A stretch of 41,903 nt of DNA from an uncultured Oscillospiraceae bacterium (GTDB lineage: Bacteria; Bacillota; Clostridia; Oscillospirales; Oscillospiraceae), in assembly GCA_947624385.1 (NCBI GenBank), contig CANQJZ010000020.1, forward strand, positions 1-41,903. The letters are read 5' to 3'. Position 1 is the stretch's first letter. Each line of letters starts with the position of its first letter. The position numbers and the translations under genes were made by a program. Below are positions 25,699-34,231 of this stretch, one piece after another. A model generated the notes under the pieces. That model was not told the origin of the DNA and did no database searches. It worked only from the letters and a program-made list of their open reading frames with translations.

Positions 25699-25990
25699 GC
25701 GAGGTAAACAAAAGGCGGGACGTGAGGCGGTTGCAACACCTCACGCCCCTATGCAGGAGTCGTAGCCTCCCACACAGCAGGATATACTGCGCCGGACCCA
25801 TTATACCCGCAACCCTCTGTTTTTACAAGGCGGTTTACGGATGATGGGGGCAGTGCTGTCGTTCCACGGTGTAGGGAAGTTTCCCTGCGCCGTCTTTTGT
25901 TTGTCTCGGTGGGAAGGTCCGCGGGCGGGCGAAAACCCGCCCCGGACCCGACTGCCGGGAAACAATTTAAGAAAGGAACGGTATGAAAGC
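25699..25990 (+). promoter_or_regulatory. structured 5' leader RNA, copy 2 (candidate cis-regulatory RNA)
   Basis: About 292 nt, colinear with 3012-3298. The first hairpin is GGG-a-CGTGAGG / CCTCACG-CCC (25717-25748), with the loop changed in length. The blocks CCCCTATGCAGGAGTC, CACAGCAGGATA and TGCGCCGGACCCATTATACC are shared. The terminator-like hairpin (25866-25893) and the GC-rich hairpin before the ribosome site are nearly identical to copy 1. Between the two, a further stem (about CCGCAACC with GGTTTACGG) differs from copy 1 (CGTAACCC with GGGTTAT) but can still pair in part. Confidence 0.65.
25866..25903 (+). terminator. internal attenuator-like hairpin in leader copy 2
   Basis: Same hairpin as at 3173, ACGG-UGU-AGGGAA with UUCCCU-GCG-CCGU, followed by CTTTTGTTTG. 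Confidence 0.55.
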
Positions 25991-27280
25991 ATGGCAAAGC
26001 GCGGTTTGAGTTTGCTCCTGGCGCTGGTGACGGTGTTCTCTCTCACCGCCCCAGCGTTCGCGGAGGAAGCGCCGGTCGAGGAACCGGAAGAAGTAACGGA
26101 GGAAGTAGAGAACAAGCCGGTGACGGCGGCCACGTCCGGCACCTGCGGCGAGGGTGTGACCTATACCCTGACCAATGACGGCACCGTCACTATCTCAGGA
26201 AATGGAAAAATTGACGCGTTTGCATTTGAGAATCGCCGTGATATTGAAACTGTCGTAATAAATAGCGGCGTGACCGGCATCGGGGGGTATGCGTTTTCTG
26301 GCTGCACGTCGTTGACCAGAGTAACGATCCCAGGCAGCGTGGGCAGCATAGAGGACGGTGCGTTTTCCCACTGCCCTTCGCTGGCGAGCGTGAAAATCAA
26401 CAATGGTGTGACTACCATCATGATTTTTGCATTTTTATGGTGCGATGCCCTAACCAGTGTTACAATCCCGGAAAGCGTGACCAGTATTGGGGAAAGTGCG
26501 TTTGGTTTGTGCGATTCTCTGACCGATGTGACGGTCTTGAATCCAGACTGCGAGATATATTACAGGAGTGACACTCTTGGCGTACAAGACGGTGTGACGA
26601 CCATCCACGGCTATACCGGGTCCACGGCAGCCGCATATGCCAAGGCGTACGGCTACCCGTTCGTGGCATTGGATGCGGCGCCTACAGTGACGCCTACCCC
26701 TAAGCCTACGGCGACGCCGGTACCCACCCTTGCGGCTCCCACGGTGGAGATCGCCCAGACAAGCGACGGTATTCAGGTGTCGTGGAACAAGGTCGCCGGT
26801 TCACCCCGCTACATGGTGTACTACAAAGAGGGCAGCGGCTCTTGGAAAAAGATCGGTACCACGACCTCTACCACCTACACCCGCAAGGCGGCACAGTTGA
26901 AAAACGGCGTGACCTATACGTTCACCGTCCGCTGCTGCGAGAACGACAAGAAGACGCTGCTCGGCCCCTACAAGGCCAGCAACAGCCTCAAGTACACCGC
27001 CCAGCTGGCCGCTCCCACCGTGAAGATCGCGAAAGTTGCCGGGGGAATCAAAGTCAGTTGGAATAAAATCACCGGCTCGCCCCGCTACATGGTCTATTAC
27101 AAAGAAAACGGCGGCAGCTGGAAGCGGATAGGCACCACCACCGCGACCACCTACACCCGTGCTGCCAAGTACCTCAAGAACGGCGCAACGTACCAGTTCA
27201 CCGTCCGCTGCTGTGAAAATGACAAGAAAACCCTGCTGGGGCCGTACAAGGCAAGTAATTCTTTGAAATACACGAAATAA
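25991..27280 (+). CDS. BspA-type leucine-rich-repeat surface protein, short form, two FN3 domains
   Basis: 429-residue exported protein. Signal peptide 1-24 (ends TAPAFA), acidic Glu/Val/Pro stretch (25-40), about five BspA-type LRR_5 repeats (about 50-215; SLTRVTIPGSVGSIEDGAFSHC and similar, read in parts), a short Pro/Thr linker (about 235-246), and two FN3-like modules (247-337 and 338-429) almost identical to those of the protein at 3299. No cell-wall sorting motif. The start is the ATG at 25991; the frame is open upstream to 25841 only because the leader happens to lack stops. An out-of-frame ATG at 25983 heads an 8-codon ORF overlapping the start. Same leader and terminator design as the long paralogue. 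Confidence 0.87.
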   Translation: MAKRGLSLLLALVTVFSLTAPAFAEEAPVEEPEEVTEEVENKPVTAATSGTCGEGVTYTLTNDGTVTISGNGKIDAFAFENRRDIETVVINSGVTGIGGYAFSGCTSLTRVTIPGSVGSIEDGAFSHCPSLASVKINNGVTTIMIFAFLWCDALTSVTIPESVTSIGESAFGLCDSLTDVTVLNPDCEIYYRSDTLGVQDGVTTIHGYTGSTAAAYAKAYGYPFVALDAAPTVTPTPKPTATPVPTLAAPTVEIAQTSDGIQVSWNKVAGSPRYMVYYKEGSGSWKKIGTTTSTTYTRKAAQLKNGVTYTFTVRCCENDKKTLLGPYKASNSLKYTAQLAAPTVKIAKVAGGIKVSWNKITGSPRYMVYYKENGGSWKRIGTTTATTYTRAAKYLKNGATYQFTVRCCENDKKTLLGPYKASNSLKYTK

Positions 27281-27286
27281 AATTTT

Positions 27287-27311
27287 GGGCGCGTCGAAAG
27301 ACGCGCCCATT
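27287..27311 (+). terminator. terminator of the second BspA-type gene
   Basis: GGGCGCGTC-gaaa-GACGCGCCC then ATTT, 6 bp after the stop codon. Compared with the paralogue's terminator at 6102, one stem pair is exchanged and still pairs. Confidence 0.8.
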
Positions 27312-27312
27312 T

Positions 27313-27452
27313 CTCTCCCTCCGACGCGGCGGAGCCGCGCCACCTCCCTCGTCAGAGGGAGGCTTGGAAAAAGGAAGAGGATTTAAAATATCTCTCCCTC
27401 AGTCAGCGCGGAGCGCTGACAGCCCCCTCGTCAGAGGGGGCCTTTGAATAAG
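27313..27452. repeat. two adjacent two-hairpin repeats (types C and A)
   Basis: First unit: CTCTCCCTCCG, GCGGCggaGCCGC, CCTCCCTCgtcaGAGGGAGG. After AAGGAAGAGGATTTAAAATAT comes the second unit: CTCTCCCTCAGTCAGCGC, GCGCTGAC, GCCCCCTCgtcaGAGGGGGC, CTTTGAATAAGG. It fills most of the 302-bp gap before hrcA; the remainder is the hrcA promoter and CIRCE. Confidence 0.75.
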
Positions 27453-27495
27453 GAAAATGAATATGAACAAATTACAAATAATATGGCCGGGAGGG

Positions 27496-27524
27496 TTGAC
27501 AGGGGCGAAAAGGTGTGGTAAATT
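27496..27524 (+). promoter_or_regulatory. promoter of the heat-shock operon
   Basis: TTGACA (27496-27501), 17-bp spacer, TAAATT (27519-27524). The -10 box overlaps the first bases of the CIRCE operator. Confidence 0.75.
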
Positions 27525-27549
27525 AGCACTCGAAAGAAAAGAGTGCTAG
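27523..27549. promoter_or_regulatory. CIRCE operator (HrcA binding site)
   Basis: TTAGCACTC-N9-GAGTGCTAG: the canonical CIRCE inverted repeat with a single departure from consensus in the last base. It overlaps the -10 box and the start of the transcript, so HrcA bound here would block initiation. Confidence 0.96.
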
Positions 27550-27582
27550 CAAATCTGGCTTTGAACTGCCAGGAGGCGGCAA

Positions 27583-28683
27583 ATGGAACTGAGCGAGAGA
27601 AAGAAAAGAATACTGACCGCCGTGGTGGAGGGCTATATCGCCACCGCGGAGCCGGTGGGGTCCAAGACCCTGGCCCAGGCCATCGGCTGTTCCTCCGCGA
27701 CCATCCGCAACGAGATGAGCGAGCTGACCGGCATGGGGCTTTTGGAGCAGCCCCACACCAGCGCGGGACGGGTGCCGTCCCCGGCGGGGTACCGGCTGTA
27801 CGTCAACGAGCTGATGGAGAAGCAGAAGCTGTCCGAGGCCGAGACCGCCGCCATCAACGAAAAGCTGGCCCGCAAGGACGAGCAGATCGAAAAGCTCATG
27901 GCCGAGGTGGGACAGCTCACCAGCTCCATGACCCAATACCCGGCCTACGCGCTGACCATGAAGCCGCCGGTGGCGGTGAAGCGGTTCGATTTCATTTATA
28001 TAGACAGGAACACGTTCATCGTGGTGGCGCTGCTGACGGACAACACCGTGAAGAACAAGCTGGTACACCTGCCCTTTTCCGTGGACCAGGAGCAGATCAA
28101 CACCCTGTCCAGCCTGTTCAACGCCAATTTCACCGGCGTGACGGACCGGGAGATCACGGACAGCATCATCCGGTCCACCCAGCGGGCCGCGGGGGATACC
28201 TACGGGCTGGTGGCGGTGGTGGCAAGCTTCACCATGGAGTGCCTGGCCGCGGCAAGGACCGCCCCCATGAGGGTGGCGGGCGCGTCAAGGCTTTTGAACC
28301 AGCCGGAATACCGGGACCCGGACAAGGCCCACGCGCTGATGAACTTCATCTCCGACGGCAGCCGCCTGGCGGAGGACCTGCCCCCTGCCGGCCTGGGCCA
28401 GGACGGCATACGGGTCACCATCGGGCCGGAAAACATGGCGGAGGAATTGAAGGATTCCAGCGTGGTCATGGCCTCTTATGACGCCGGGGACGGTATGCGG
28501 GGCTACATCGGCGTGGTGGGTCCCACCCGGATGGACTACTCCGGCGTGGCCGCAAAATTGAGCTACATCGCCGCGGGGCTGAGCCGGCTCCTGGCCGGGA
28601 CAGACGCCCCGGAGGGTCTGAACAATAAATTAGTGTTGAAGGAAAGTGAACGCCATGAGCAAGAAGCAGGACAGGAAGGATAA
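27583..28683 (+). CDS. hrcA: heat-inducible transcription repressor HrcA
   Basis: 366-residue repressor of class I heat-shock genes. The N-terminal winged helix (about 1-70) has AEPVGSKTLAQAIGCSSATI and MGLLEQPHTSAGRVPSPAGY, both hallmark HrcA segments. A middle dimerisation/GAF-like region follows, and the C-terminal RMDYSGVAAKLSYIA is the usual HrcA end block. The final 20 or so residues (ESERHEQEAGQEG) extend beyond the usual end and overlap grpE by 29 bp. ATG at 27583 follows CCAGGAGGCGGCAA. It binds CIRCE at 27523; GroEL normally modulates its activity. Confidence 0.96.
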   Translation: MELSERKKRILTAVVEGYIATAEPVGSKTLAQAIGCSSATIRNEMSELTGMGLLEQPHTSAGRVPSPAGYRLYVNELMEKQKLSEAETAAINEKLARKDEQIEKLMAEVGQLTSSMTQYPAYALTMKPPVAVKRFDFIYIDRNTFIVVALLTDNTVKNKLVHLPFSVDQEQINTLSSLFNANFTGVTDREITDSIIRSTQRAAGDTYGLVAVVASFTMECLAAARTAPMRVAGASRLLNQPEYRDPDKAHALMNFISDGSRLAEDLPPAGLGQDGIRVTIGPENMAEELKDSSVVMASYDAGDGMRGYIGVVGPTRMDYSGVAAKLSYIAAGLSRLLAGTDAPEGLNNKLVLKESERHEQEAGQEG

Positions 28684-29209
28684 GCCCCAGCAGCCGGAGC
28701 AGCCGGAGAAAGAGACCGAGGAAGTCAAAGCCGCCGAGGAAGCACCGGAGGAAGAACCGAAGGAGCAGGGACCCGGCGAGGCCGAGACGCTGAAGGCAAG
28801 TCTGGCCGAGGCAAACGACAAGTACCTGCGGATGCTGGCGGAGTACGACAATTACCGCCGCCGCAGCCAGAAGGAGCGGGAGAGCATCTACACCGACGTG
28901 CGGGCGGATACGGTGATGAAGTTCCTGCCGGTGTACGATAACCTGGCCCGGGCCGTCCAGCACGAGACGGACGACGACACCCGCAAGGGCGTGGAGGCCA
29001 TCTTCACCCAGCTCAAGGGCATTTTGGAAGGCATGGGCGTGACGGAGATAGAGACCGTGGGCAAGAAGTTCGACCCGGCGCTGCACGACGCGCTGCTGCA
29101 CATCGACGACGAAAAGTACGGCGAGGGCGAGATCGTGCTGGAGCTGGAAAAGGGCTTCAAGCTGGGCGACCGGGTGATACGGTTCGCAAGGGTCCAGGTG
29201 GCAAACTGA
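28655..29209 (+). CDS. grpE: nucleotide exchange factor GrpE
   Basis: 184-residue co-chaperone that releases ADP from DnaK. N-terminal charged, disordered stretch (1-45), then the long dimerising helix (LKASLAEANDKYLRMLAEYD, NYRRRSQKERES), the four-helix bundle (MKFLPVYDNLARAVQHETDD) and the C-terminal beta wing (FDPALHDALLHI, VLELEKGFKLGDRVIRFARV). The start is the ATG at 28655, 8 bp after AAGGAAAG; the in-frame GTG at 28646 overlaps that site. It overlaps hrcA by 29 bp. This is a complete GrpE, in contrast with the truncated GrpE domain fused to the next gene product. Confidence 0.95.
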   Translation: MSKKQDRKDKPQQPEQPEKETEEVKAAEEAPEEEPKEQGPGEAETLKASLAEANDKYLRMLAEYDNYRRRSQKERESIYTDVRADTVMKFLPVYDNLARAVQHETDDDTRKGVEAIFTQLKGILEGMGVTEIETVGKKFDPALHDALLHIDDEKYGEGEIVLELEKGFKLGDRVIRFARVQVAN

Positions 29210-29236
29210 ACTTCCTGCATTGGGGAGCGTGGGGAT

Positions 29237-30736
29237 ATGGGAAGGATCATCGGCATCGATCTGAGCGGTATCGGCCCTCGGGCCGCCGTGCTGCGGAACG
29301 GCAGGGCGGAAGCGATCCCCGGGTCCATCTCTGAGCCCATGAGCGCCGCCCAACTGCTGGCGGCTTTGAAAAGCCAGGCGGAGCGGTATCTGGGCGGGCC
29401 GGTGGACGGCGCGGTCATCGCCGTGTCCGCCATGCTGAACGAGGTCCAGCGGGAGCGGATCCGGGCCGCCGCCGGCGAGGCGGGGCTGCAGATCGTCCGG
29501 CTCATCTCCGCGCCAGCCGCCGCGGCGCTGCATTACGCCTGGGAGCGCGGGCACCCCGAAGGAAAGTATTTGGCGGTCCATATGGGCGCCACGGAGACCG
29601 ACATGGCCGTGATAGAACTGGGCGACAAGGTCGTGGAGGTGCTGGCTGTTGACGGCACGGACCGGTGGGGCGCCGCCGGGTCTCACGGCGGGACGGCGGC
29701 GATGGAGGCCGACCTGCGGCGGATGGTCCGGGACACGCTGCAGGAGGCGGGCTTGGCTCGATCTGAGCTGGCCGGGCTGATCCCCTCGGGCGACGGACAG
29801 TGCGTCTTCGCCATGATGGATACGCTGCGGGACGCCGCCGGGTGCCACCCCGTCACCGGCACGGAGCCGGAGGAGAGCGCGGTATTTGGCGCGGCCATCC
29901 GGGGCGGCGTACTGGACGGCGAAGTGAGAGGCATTTTGCTGCTGGACGCGACGGCCTATACCCTGGGCGTCGAGGCCGCGGGCGGTGTGTACGCACGGCT
30001 CATCGAGCGCAACACGGCGCTCCCCACCCGCCACAGCGAGGTCTTCTCCAATTACGCGGACGGGCAGACCAGTATGGAGGTCGCGGTCGTGCAGGGCGAG
30101 AGCGATAAGCCGGAGGAAAATACGCTCATCGGGCGCTTCGTCGTCAGCGGCTTTGCCACCGGCCCCAAGGGGAAAGCGCAGGTGGAGGTCGCTCTGGACC
30201 TCGACGCAGACGGCCGCGTTTCGATAGACGTACGGGAACCGGACGGCAAGGAAGGCCGGCCGCTGACGGTGACGAAAAAGAGAGGACCGGTCGCGGTCAA
30301 ACCGCCGGAACCGCCGAAAAAAGCGCCTAAGCCCCAGGCGGCACCGGCGCCGCCGAAAGAAGCGCCCAGGCCAAAAGCGCCGTCCGCGCCTAAGCCCAAA
30401 GAAGTGCCCAGGCCGGAAGGCGACGGCCGTCTGGAGGCGGTGCTGAAGCTCCTGCCGGTGTACGACAGCCTGAGCCGGGCGGTCCTGTACGAGACGGACC
30501 AGGCCAGACGCCAGGGCTCGGAGGCCATACTGAAGCAGTACCGGACCATCCTCGCCGACATGGGCGTCACCGCCATCGAGACGGTGGGCAGGACCTTCGA
30601 TCCTAAGCTGCACGACGCCCAGAGCCACGTCACCGACCCGCGATACGGGCCAAACGTGATCGTCCGGGAGCTGGAAGCGGGATTTCTGATGGACGGAAAG
30701 GTCATCCGCTTCGCCAAGGTCCAGGTGGCAAATTAA
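29237..30736 (+). CDS. degenerate Hsp70 fused to a C-terminal GrpE domain
   Basis: Intact 499-residue protein. Residues 1-228 form a shrunken DnaK-like nucleotide-binding domain. [19 protein letters not shown] aligns with DnaK's GTTNS loop but lacks it. [15 protein letters not shown] replaces DnaK's [25 protein letters not shown] replaces [10 protein letters not shown]. About 50 residues of lobe IB and about 80 of lobe IIB are absent. Residues 229-345 are a well-kept SBD-beta ([20 protein letters not shown]; DnaK has [20 protein letters not shown]). The helical lid is replaced by a Pro/Lys/Ala linker (346-394), then a GrpE bundle and beta wing without the long helix (396-499, ending RFAKVQVAN; the neighbour ends RFARVQVAN). 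Likely ATPase-dead but able to bind clients and perhaps DnaK. Starts 27 bp after grpE in the CIRCE operon; GGGAGCG and GGGGATAT precede the ATG. Confidence 0.9.
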
Positions 30737-30747
30737 CGCGTATATTT

Positions 30748-30762
30748 GTCCCGAAACGGGAC
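30748..30762. other. small stem-loop between the fusion gene and dnaK
   Basis: GTCCCG-aaa-CGGGAC in an otherwise AT-rich 71-bp spacer, without a T-tract. Possibly an mRNA processing or stabilising element that raises the dnaK segment relative to upstream genes; function inferred only from position. Confidence 0.4.
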
Positions 30763-30807
30763 TTCAATATAAATAAATTCGATTTGAAATATCAGGAGGA
30801 AAAGAAA

Positions 30808-32664
<1,857 letters not shown>

Positions 32665-32691
32665 TAAAATTATCCGCGGGATACCTTGTCG

Positions 32692-32813
32692 CCTCCCTCT
32701 GACGAGGGAGGTGGCACGGCGTCAGCCGTGACGGAGGGAGAGATATTTAAAATTTTCTCTCCCCCAGTCAGCGCCAAAGGCGCTGACAGCCCCCTCGTCA
32801 GAGGGGGCCGGAT
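32692..32813. repeat. two adjacent two-hairpin repeats (types C and A)
   Basis: GCCTCCCTCtgacGAGGGAGG, CACGGCgtcaGCCGTG, ACGGAGGGAGAGA, an AT-rich joint (TATTTAAAATTTT), then CTCTCCCCCAGTCAGCGCC, GGCGCTGACA, GCCCCCTCgtcaGAGGGGGC. It separates dnaK from dnaJ. Confidence 0.75.
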
Positions 32814-32869
32814 TCTAAACGTGGGCAGTGAACCTCATAAGAGGGGACCATGTAAGGTAGTGAAAGACT

Positions 32870-33997
32870 ATGGCAGATAAACGGGATTATTATGAGGTCC
32901 TGGGGTTGCAGAAGGGCGCGTCGGAGGACGAGATCAAAAAAGCCTACCGGCAGGCGGCCAAGGCCAACCACCCGGACCTGCACCCCGGCGATAAAGAGGC
33001 CGAGGCCCGGTTCAAGGAGGCCAACGAGGCGTACGCCGTGCTGTCCGACCCGGACAAGCGGGCGAAATACGACCAGTTCGGCTTCGCGGGCGTGGACCCG
33101 AATTTTGCGGCCAGCGCCGGGGCCGGGGGCTTCGGCGGGTTCGGCGACCTGGGGGATATCTTCGGGGATATATTCGGCGGGTTCGGCGGCTTTGGCGGCG
33201 GCTTCGGCGGCCAGGCCCGCCAGCAGACCCGCTCCGGTCCCCGCCGGGGCGAGAGCCTGCGGGTGCGGCTGACCATCTCCTTTGAGGAGGCGGCCTTCGG
33301 CTGCAAAAAGGACATCAATATCACCCGGGTGGACCAGTGCCCGGCCTGCAAGGGCAGCGGCTGCGCCCCCGGTACCACGCCGGAGGTATGCCCGGACTGC
33401 CGGGGCTCCGGGACCGTCCGGACCCAGCAGCGGACCCCCTTCGGGGTGTTCCAGTCCTCCGGGCCGTGCCCCAAGTGCGGCGGCTCCGGCAAGATCGTCC
33501 ACTCCCCATGCACCCAATGCAGGGGCAGCGGGAATATACGGGCCCAGAAGAAGCTGAACGTGTCCATCCCCGCAGGCATCGACAACGGGGAGACCGTCTC
33601 CCTGCGCGGCCAGGGCAACGCGGGCGCCAACGGCGGCCCGGCCGGGGACCTGCTGGTCCAGGTGCAGGTCCGGCCCAGCAGCGTGTTCCGGCGGGACGGT
33701 ACGAACGTGTATACCAGCACCCAGCTGAGCTTCGTCCGGGCGGCGCTGGGCACGGAGATAGAAGTGCCCACCCTGGAAGGGCCGGTGAGCCTGAACATAC
33801 CCGAGGGTACCCAGACCGGGTCCGTGTTCCGGCTGCGGGGCAAGGGCATCCCCAACGTGCGCACGGGCTTGAAGGGCGACGAGTTCGTCACCGTGGACCT
33901 GGTGACGCCCAAGAATCTCAACCGGAAGCAGAAGGAGCTTTTGCAGGAGCTGGCCGATATATCCGGGGAAAAGGTCAAGAAAAAGAGAAAACTGTAA
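32870..33997 (+). CDS. dnaJ: co-chaperone DnaJ (Hsp40)
   Basis: 375-residue class I J-protein. J domain 1-70 with the HPD triad ([12 protein letters not shown]); Gly/Phe-rich region about 75-125 ([20 protein letters not shown]); four zinc-finger repeats about 150-215 ([36 protein letters not shown]), all cysteines present; C-terminal client-binding domains to 375. It stimulates DnaK ATPase and delivers clients. The ATG at 32870 follows AAGGTAGTGAAAG, a weak ribosome site. It is co-directional with dnaK, but a repeat cluster lies between, so co-transcription needs read-through. Confidence 0.96.
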
Positions 33998-34002
33998 TTT
34001 TA

Positions 34003-34034
34003 AAAACCGGGGGCGTTGCGGCGCTCCCGGTTTT
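34003..34034 (+). terminator. terminator of dnaJ
   Basis: 13-bp stem AAAACCGGGGGCG / CGCTCCCGGTTTT (one G-U pair), loop TTGCGG, TTTT at the end of the stem; 5 bp after the stop codon. Confidence 0.8.
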
Positions 34035-34044
34035 GGTATATAAT
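34016..34044 (+). promoter_or_regulatory. promoter embedded in the dnaJ terminator
   Basis: TTGCGG (34016-34021, the terminator loop), 17-bp spacer, TATAAT (34039-34044). The predicted start falls at 34050-34051, the first base of the stem described next. Confidence 0.6.
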
Positions 34045-34049
34045 ACGTC

Positions 34050-34146
34050 GGGGCACACGTCCTAGGTCTCGCCTTGCCGCAAGCGGCAAGGCTCGAGTAG
34101 GCCGTTGCCCCTCCTCTCCCCCAAAAGGCAGGCGTGCCTTTTGGGG
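34050..34146 (+). ncRNA. candidate structured small RNA or 5' leader
   Basis: A long interrupted hairpin starts at the predicted first transcribed base: GGGGCA (34050) pairs with TGCCCC (34106), CCTA (34061) with TAGG (34098), and GCCTTGCCG (34071) with CGGCAAGGC (34084) around a CAAG loop. Two asymmetric internal loops lie between. A second hairpin CCCCAAAAGGCA-ggcg-TGCCTTTTGGGG follows (34119-34146). It lacks a T-tract, so the RNA may continue as the leader of the gene at 34285. I do not recognise the family. Confidence 0.45.
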
Positions 34147-34177
34147 ACCCCGGGAAAGAGGAAGAGGATTTAAATAT

Positions 34178-34231
34178 CTCTCCCTCCGTCTCGGCCTGAC
34201 GGCCGAGCCACCTCCCTCGTCAGAGGGAGGC
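34178..34231. repeat. two-hairpin intergenic repeat (type C, reversed)
   Basis: CTCTCCCTCCG, TCTCGGCctgacGGCCGAG, CCTCCCTCgtcaGAGGGAGG. It lies between the candidate RNA and the mannosyltransferase gene. Confidence 0.7.

Follow-up and report, generated by a model that had tools for sequence, protein, structure and literature searches.

GrpE is the known exchange factor of bacteria, and the pseudo-Hsp70 co-chaperones Hsp110 and Ssz1 are known as a eukaryotic route to helpers made from Hsp70. Hsp110 binds ATP and has extended loops in its substrate-binding domain (SBD). In the available excerpts of two papers, Hsp110 is described as a relative of Hsp70 with both a holdase and an exchange-factor role (PMC12987570, PMC12305717), and a section title in the second, 'Sse1 by itself cannot prevent MlucV aggregation', makes holding uncertain even for Hsp110. 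Ssz1 is presented, in the accessible part of PMC7083937, as a non-canonical Hsp70 whose rudimentary SBD takes chains ahead of the true Hsp70 and is occupied by a proline-rich motif of its partner. Here we describe a gene of an uncultured Oscillospiraceae bacterium (GenBank assembly GCA_947624385.1, contig CANQJZ010000020.1, positions 1 to 41,903) that joins an Hsp70 part to a GrpE part, hereafter the fusion. The whole stretch of 41,903 nucleotides is referred to as the window.

The fusion is built from Hsp70 and GrpE and, by the defining tests of each family, is neither a DnaK nor a full GrpE. The original prediction, made from the letters of the window, saw an intact frame of 499 codons between grpE and dnaK; the frame is intact, and Pfam places HSP70 and GrpE domains within it. 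A second fusion was found in another species of the same genus (labelled G015; the window's own genome is G000). Tentatively, and at somewhat less than an even chance, we read the fusion as an ATP-independent co-chaperone, a holdase and hand-over arm for DnaK that would act like Hsp110 or Ssz1. Its layout is as follows.

29237..30736, + strand: fusion gene, 499 codons, an open frame between grpE and dnaK.
29237..29932, + strand: fusion residues 1-232, nucleotide-domain remnant with cores IA and IIA only (alignment; the predicted fold superposes on DnaK).
29933..30277, + strand: fusion residues 233-347, interdomain linker (ILLLD) and SBD-beta (best PF00012 stretch 161-348).
30278..30424, + strand: fusion residues 348-396, tether rich in Pro, Lys and Ala (sequence; AlphaFold2 (AF2) predicted local distance difference test (pLDDT) below 50 at 350-389 and 391-394).
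30425..30733, + strand: fusion residues 397-499, GrpE dimer helices and beta-domain, without the long N-terminal helix (PF01025 at 401-498; solved GrpE 4ani, 3.8e-14).

Compared with these eukaryotic helpers, the fusion would reach its partner in another way. Hsp110 (Sse1) meets Hsp70 through an interface between nucleotide-binding domains (NBDs), according to the accessible text of PMC12987570, whereas the partner module of the fusion would be its GrpE head; moreover, the ATP site is gone in the fusion, unlike in Hsp110. As in Ssz1, where the partner motif occupies the SBD, the proline-rich tether of the fusion might sit in its own SBD. However, Ssz1 is eukaryotic, its partner is the J-protein Zuo1, it has no GrpE part, and the kinship to the fusion considered here is that of the Hsp70 superfamily. 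In the ribosome-associated complex (RAC), Ssz1 forms a heterodimer with this J-protein; at the present locus, an ordinary dnaJ lies downstream of the fusion. For a rudimentary SBD receiving chains before a true Hsp70, Ssz1 is the closest precedent. The original prediction knew of no described chaperone with this domain order, and none appeared among the open-access papers listed either, be it an Hsp70-GrpE or a DnaK-GrpE fusion, subscription papers being mostly outside this scope. The same listings yielded no degenerate or truncated DnaK paralogue. PilZ-DnaK proteins and the DnaK duplication of Myxococcus were considered as precedents and, from the parts of those sources available, are different from the fusion.

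With DnaK, the fusion shares cores IA and IIA, a hydrophobic interdomain linker, SBD-beta, the operon neighbourhood and a superposable predicted fold (over 342 residues); unlike DnaK, it has no lobes IB and IIB, ATP-binding loops, catalytic residues or lid. The HSP70 profile (PF00012) is matched at 6e-57 with 193.6 bits (gathering cut-off 20.6), whereas the DnaK equivalog model TIGR02350 gives the fusion 230 bits, against a cut-off of 822.55 and 936.8 bits for the organism's own DnaK. We aligned the two fusions with 37 DnaK sequences, setting the lobe borders ourselves, and counted the columns kept in both: 27/29 for the start of IA, 102/106 for the end of IA and start of IIA, 72/76 for the end of IIA, 10/10 for the interdomain linker and 99/103 for SBD-beta, with 0/61 for lobe IB and 4/92 for lobe IIB. 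The loss of about 130 residues from these two lobes, as the original prediction had it, agrees with the length up to the end of SBD-beta (347 residues in the fusion vs. 477 in DnaK). It was equally right that the helical lid (SBD-alpha) is gone, with 0/123 lid-and-tail columns (DnaK 478-600) in both fusions.

The three nucleotide-binding motifs reported as lost are indeed altered in the window's fusion, where GTTNS reads SGIGP, DLGGGT reads HMGATE and GGSTRIP reads GDGQCVF. We take T11, T12, N13, K70, E171, D194, T199 and GGSxR (E. coli numbering) to be the ATP-site residues. The equivalents of T11, T12, N13, E171, D194, T199, G339, S340 and R342 are altered in both orthologues, that of K70 is serine or absent, and GGSTR is GDGQC in one fusion and GDAGA in the other; those of D8, G196 and G338 are retained. 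Because these residues are altered in both, ATP hydrolysis by the fusion is very unlikely, and the doubt already expressed about it is strengthened by a site destroyed in two orthologues. In SBD-beta, both fusions keep F426 and D477 and have hydrophobic residues at I401 and I438, and the V436 equivalent is methionine. Peptide binding appears possible, though the pocket is unlike that of DnaK.

Some retained Hsp70 surfaces could instead serve as a decoy, for DnaJ or for the long helix of GrpE, through R167 with the linker or through the SBD loop RLIER, and so tune HrcA feedback or DnaJ availability. The equivalents of R167, D393 and D477 are retained in both orthologues, and R167 and D393 presumably lie on the J-domain side of DnaK. 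However, lobes IB and IIB are absent, and the equivalents of N170, N415 and T417 are not retained in both; we consider a decoy quite unlikely.

With GrpE, the fusion shares the dimer helices, the beta-domain, the equivalent of G122 and a PF01025 match over the cut-off (3.1e-23, 82.7 bits, cut-off 25.8; residues 401-498, profile positions 63-164 of 165). Unlike GrpE, it lacks the disordered tail and the long N-terminal helix, and an Hsp70 body stands in their place. It does not reach the cut-off of any NCBIfam GrpE model among the best 25 of 32 rows. The Hsp70 and GrpE stretches first proposed hold with slightly moved borders (residues 1-347 and 397-499), as does the C-terminal end IRFA[K/R]VQVAN shared with the organism's own GrpE. 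Helices are predicted at 397-418 and 422-441, followed by strands, and G427 aligns to position 122 of 1dkg (the equivalent of E. coli G122). The GrpE domain begins at about E. coli residue 87. The tether before it, some 50 residues long, is disordered in the AF2 model. Among 57 head positions invariant in 27 GrpEs of the genus, both fusions keep 41, and at 18 head positions, Q462 included, the two fusions are identical and carry a residue found in 0/27 of these GrpEs.

How GrpE meets DnaK is described in three papers (PMC10803776, PMC12915176, PMC10825016). In their accessible parts, the beta-domain contacts lobes IB and IIB, the dimer helices contact the IIB hairpin, and the long helix touches IA, the linker and the SBD; contacts mainly through lobe IIB, as assumed in the original prediction, are not what these parts state. 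In M. tuberculosis GrpE, according to excerpts of PMC10803776, mutation of the long-helix patch greatly lowers the affinity for DnaK, nearly abolishes exchange and leaves viability unsupported; the short-helix patch lowers refolding modestly and exchange significantly, and the beta-sheet patch has little effect. For E. coli, the available text of PMC10825016 has the IIB hairpin of DnaK resting on the GrpE dimer bundle, which is its authors' reason why GrpE is active only as a dimer. That of PMC12915176 has the GrpE tails binding the SBD of DnaK and aiding peptide release, and its contact list pairs D477 of DnaK with the long helix. A mixed dimer of fusion and GrpE is plausible since the dimer helices are retained in the fusion head, and with a full-length GrpE as partner it would provide one long helix.

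An orthologue between grpE and dnaK, which the original prediction had suggested looking for, came up in a search of 35 genomes of the genus. It is the only one found: the G015 protein is intact, has 511 aa and is 53% identical in that search (9.5e-144). It lies directly after grpE, and the start codon of dnaK comes 71 nt past the fusion stop, as in G000. An assembly error or a chimera of two genes had also been envisaged, and the assemblies are drafts (65 contigs for G000, about 240 for G015). However, G015 has the same architecture and flanks at an overall identity of 54%, so the expected break does not appear, and the longest DNA identity is 16 bases with the organism's own grpE and 20 bases with its own dnaK, short for a join artefact. 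An assembly error is already refuted in practice, and we leave it next to no probability.

For selection, all tests were pairwise only (G000 vs. G015 fusion). Maximum-likelihood (ML) estimates with F3x4 gave an omega (dN/dS) below 1 in every domain, with omega 1 rejected at p 0.0012 (tether) to 1e-13 (remnant), and synonymous divergence (dS) was saturated in the remnant, the tether and the whole gene. Omega was 0.175 in SBD-beta (p 9.5e-9) and 0.108 in the head (p 2e-10). We added a control free of any codon model, in which substitutions were permuted within codon position and base. The observed residue identity was above 500/500 shuffles for the remnant, SBD-beta and the head, and the level of the tether was reached in 21/500; only 2/500 were stop-free over the whole alignment. 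Third-position GC of the fusions is 0.84 and 0.86, vs. 0.86-0.95 in hrcA, grpE and dnaK. Judging from the sequences, purifying selection maintains the fusion in both species, where it occupies the same position.

These results bear on a decaying tandem duplicate, open by chance in two genomes, for which the original prediction expected a neutral dN/dS that we did not find. Decay would suit a gene that is rare, patchy and fast evolving, has lost its ATP site and is cleanly absent in relatives, and omega against the organism's own dnaK is near 1. Nevertheless, with the orthologue omega below 1 in every domain, so few stop-free shuffles, the third-position GC just given, and a position and architecture common to two non-sister species, decay is highly improbable.

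The main rival is that only the GrpE head matters: the fusion would pair with GrpE into poor exchange dimers and so slow the DnaK cycle under heat stress, and its Hsp70 body would be a bulky scaffold that binds no clients. Identity between the orthologues is 78% in the head, the best conserved part, vs. 45% in the remnant (54% in SBD-beta, 40% in the tether). Besides, the dimer helices are kept and the DnaK-binding long helix is lost, and the gene sits in a cluster headed by a CIRCE operator (see below). However, the constraint on SBD-beta (its low omega, and 0/500 shuffles as conserved) is unneeded by an inert scaffold. A GrpE competitor is unlikely, though to be taken seriously.

The fusion is rare. 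Among the 35 genus genomes, the grpE-dnaK junction has a gap of 65-90 nt without insert in 25, the fusion in 2 and is not assembled in 8 (G009, G014, G017, G022, G029, G031, G033, G034); 6 of the latter fall into the same seven-row rpoB group as G000 (support 81/85). Wider draws returned G000 every time: 1/400 in the family with the window's fusion protein as query (E<=1e-45), and 1/394 in the order, 1/348 in the phylum and 1/336 in the class with the two-row alignment (E<=1e-55). These draws overlap, no more than 3-4 candidates per genome received a score among the rows listed, diverged or independent fusions could escape, and G015 surfaced only in the genus search. Three loci from a scan of genome contigs were rejected: L003 and L004 hold ordinary separate grpE and dnaK genes, and L005 an ordinary dnaK. 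Long GrpE frames in G364, G090, G238 and G320 are, among the matches listed, stop-to-stop extensions before an ordinary GrpE and contain no Hsp70 sequence. Viral contigs gave no match to the fusion and none to GrpE. On such contigs, 202 stretches encode DnaK relatives, the best 80 of 202 at 57-62% identity to the window DnaK (L086-L165).

The two carriers are not sisters. In the rpoB tree (rows from 29/35 genus genomes, 200 bootstrap trees), G000 groups with G017 and G022 (100/99) and G015 with G032 and G011 (99/92), and 0% of the bootstrap trees join G000 and G015. As nearer relatives with an assembled junction have no fusion, transfer or repeated loss is needed. The GrpE tree included 27 of the 28 genomes with a GrpE match (G009 is absent) and 19 of 20 other-genus regions (G158 was under the score limit), with L003 and L004 excluded. 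Both fusion heads form one clade (100/100) within the genus (100/100), on a long branch of 0.87. Judged by the head, the fusion would have a single origin, later than the separation of the genus from the 19 other-genus rows included. The dS of the fusion head (1.15) resembles that of hrcA (1.35) and of the C-terminal part of grpE (1.48), and this speaks for old descent with losses rather than a recent transfer; whole-operon exchange may also have occurred. The DnaK tree (20/24 genus rows, those above 500 residues, and 17 others) is uninformative on the origin, as fusion branches of 2.9 and 10 dominate it.

The likely origin is a tandem duplication of grpE-dnaK followed by a deletion. The deletion would have taken out the lid-encoding end of the first dnaK, the spacer and the first part of the second grpE with its long helix, giving grpE, dnaK'::grpE', dnaK. 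This would account at once for the order of the domains and for the absence of both lid and helix. The spacer before dnaK looks like an ordinary one between grpE and dnaK, and both carriers, like many non-carriers, have a GTCCC-GGGAC hairpin there.

Other GrpE-like and Hsp70-like frames were seen in the genus. On a contig other than that of its dnaK operon, G019 has an additional GrpE-like frame (57.6 bits) and, roughly 1 kb away, an Hsp70-like frame, both of them distant (G019:C4:151570-151923 and 152957-153298). Each of G001-G006 has a further Hsp70 frame (611-633 codons) whose SBD stretch is 36-37% identical to that of the fusion; G000 shows none of this type among the matches listed.

The neighbourhood of the fusion is a heat-shock gene cluster, headed by a predicted controlling inverted repeat of chaperone expression (CIRCE).

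27496..27524, + strand: putative promoter, sigma-70-like TTGACA-17-TAAATT, overlapping CIRCE (consensus scan).
27523..27549, + strand: predicted CIRCE operator (HrcA binding site), one mismatch to TTAGCACTC-N9-GAGTGCTAA.
27583..28683, + strand: hrcA, heat-shock repressor, named by translation and position (82% identity to an incomplete G015 frame).
28655..29209, + strand: grpE, ATG start, full length with the long N-terminal helix region (PF01025 1e-41; NCBIfam NF010738 141.2 bits, cut-off 137).
30748..30762, + strand: hairpin GTCCCG-AAA-CGGGAC in the fusion-dnaK spacer, found by eye; it resembles the usual grpE-dnaK spacer of many genus members.
30808..32664, + strand: dnaK, full length (TIGR02350 936.8 bits, cut-off 822.55), with an AGGAGG ribosome site.
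32870..33997, + strand: dnaJ, J-domain and Cys-rich repeats visible in translation.

The order hrcA-grpE-fusion-dnaK-dnaJ is all on the + strand, with CIRCE at its head. The promoter call is weak alone, since the consensus scan found 3 promoter-like sites vs. 1.3 expected (7 kb, both strands), and its adjacency to CIRCE supports it. The motif that we took as the CIRCE consensus matched once, and in 0 of 100 shuffles. The same kind of scan found no terminator-like sites on the + strand from 27310 to 34200. With CIRCE and a promoter-like site upstream and no such terminator in the cluster, the fusion very likely belongs to a single HrcA-controlled operon. By eye, the ribosome site before the fusion is poorer than the AGGAGG before dnaK, which would fit a lower dose. 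Among the spacer at 30737-30807 and its grpE-dnaK counterparts in 25 relatives, many show by eye a short GC hairpin with varying loops, which may serve mRNA processing or stability. Upstream of hrcA, the frame 25841-27280 resembles, by eye, a secreted leucine-rich-repeat (BspA-like) protein with fibronectin-like repeats.

As a co-chaperone, the fusion would work as follows. The lidless SBD-beta would hold unfolded chains weakly and without ATP, and the flexible tether would join it to the GrpE head. The head would dock via its four-helix-bundle helices, most likely as a mixed dimer with normal GrpE, or with itself, and held clients would thus be beside DnaK at ADP release. In a more specific and unlikely form of this proposal, the fusion would be the bacterial counterpart of Hsp110 and Ssz1: a catalytically dead, lidless Hsp70 would enter the DnaK exchange complex via its built-in GrpE head, in a mixed dimer where a client-holding SBD-beta takes the place of one GrpE long helix, making delivery and exchange one step.

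Several points weigh against this function. Client binding, the dimer partner and the hand-over are steps that we infer, whereas the parts, the losses, the selection and the synteny can be read from the sequences. The head has neither the tail nor the long helix of GrpE, and because that helix is needed in M. tuberculosis GrpE, a fusion homodimer is doubtful as an exchange factor by itself. The original prediction, in which the GrpE head couples exchange to client hand-over, had not noticed this absence; the retained dimer helices speak for its mixed-dimer proposal, and the coupling stays conjectural. In one or both fusions, 16 of the 57 GrpE-invariant head residues are altered, and in a DnaK-facing stretch both have Q462 where 27/27 GrpEs have leucine. 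The SBD-beta pocket has changed as well: the M404 equivalent is alanine in both, and that of A429 is tyrosine or serine. The AF2 model showed the fusion in a docked, ATP-like pose, which we dropped as an argument since a control DnaK on the same rows docked too. Selection is less clear with the Nei-Gojobori method, where omega between orthologues was 0.69 in the remnant, 0.49 in SBD-beta and 0.41 in the head, a gap from ML that we put down to strong third-position GC bias. By the same method, omega against the fusions' own parents was 1.06 for the Hsp70 part and dnaK, and 0.59 and 0.93 for the heads and grpE; values near 1 point to a phase of relaxed or positive selection after duplication. 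Finally, only two orthologues are known, and the absence of the gene in 25 of the 27 genus genomes with an assembled junction makes it dispensable.

If the co-chaperone function proves true, bacteria would have reached a solution comparable to the eukaryotic pseudo-Hsp70 helpers, via tandem duplication and deletion. The syntenic gene in a related species suggests a useful role. Moreover, the fusion is a small, testable protein with which to ask whether a single molecule can combine client holding with nucleotide exchange.
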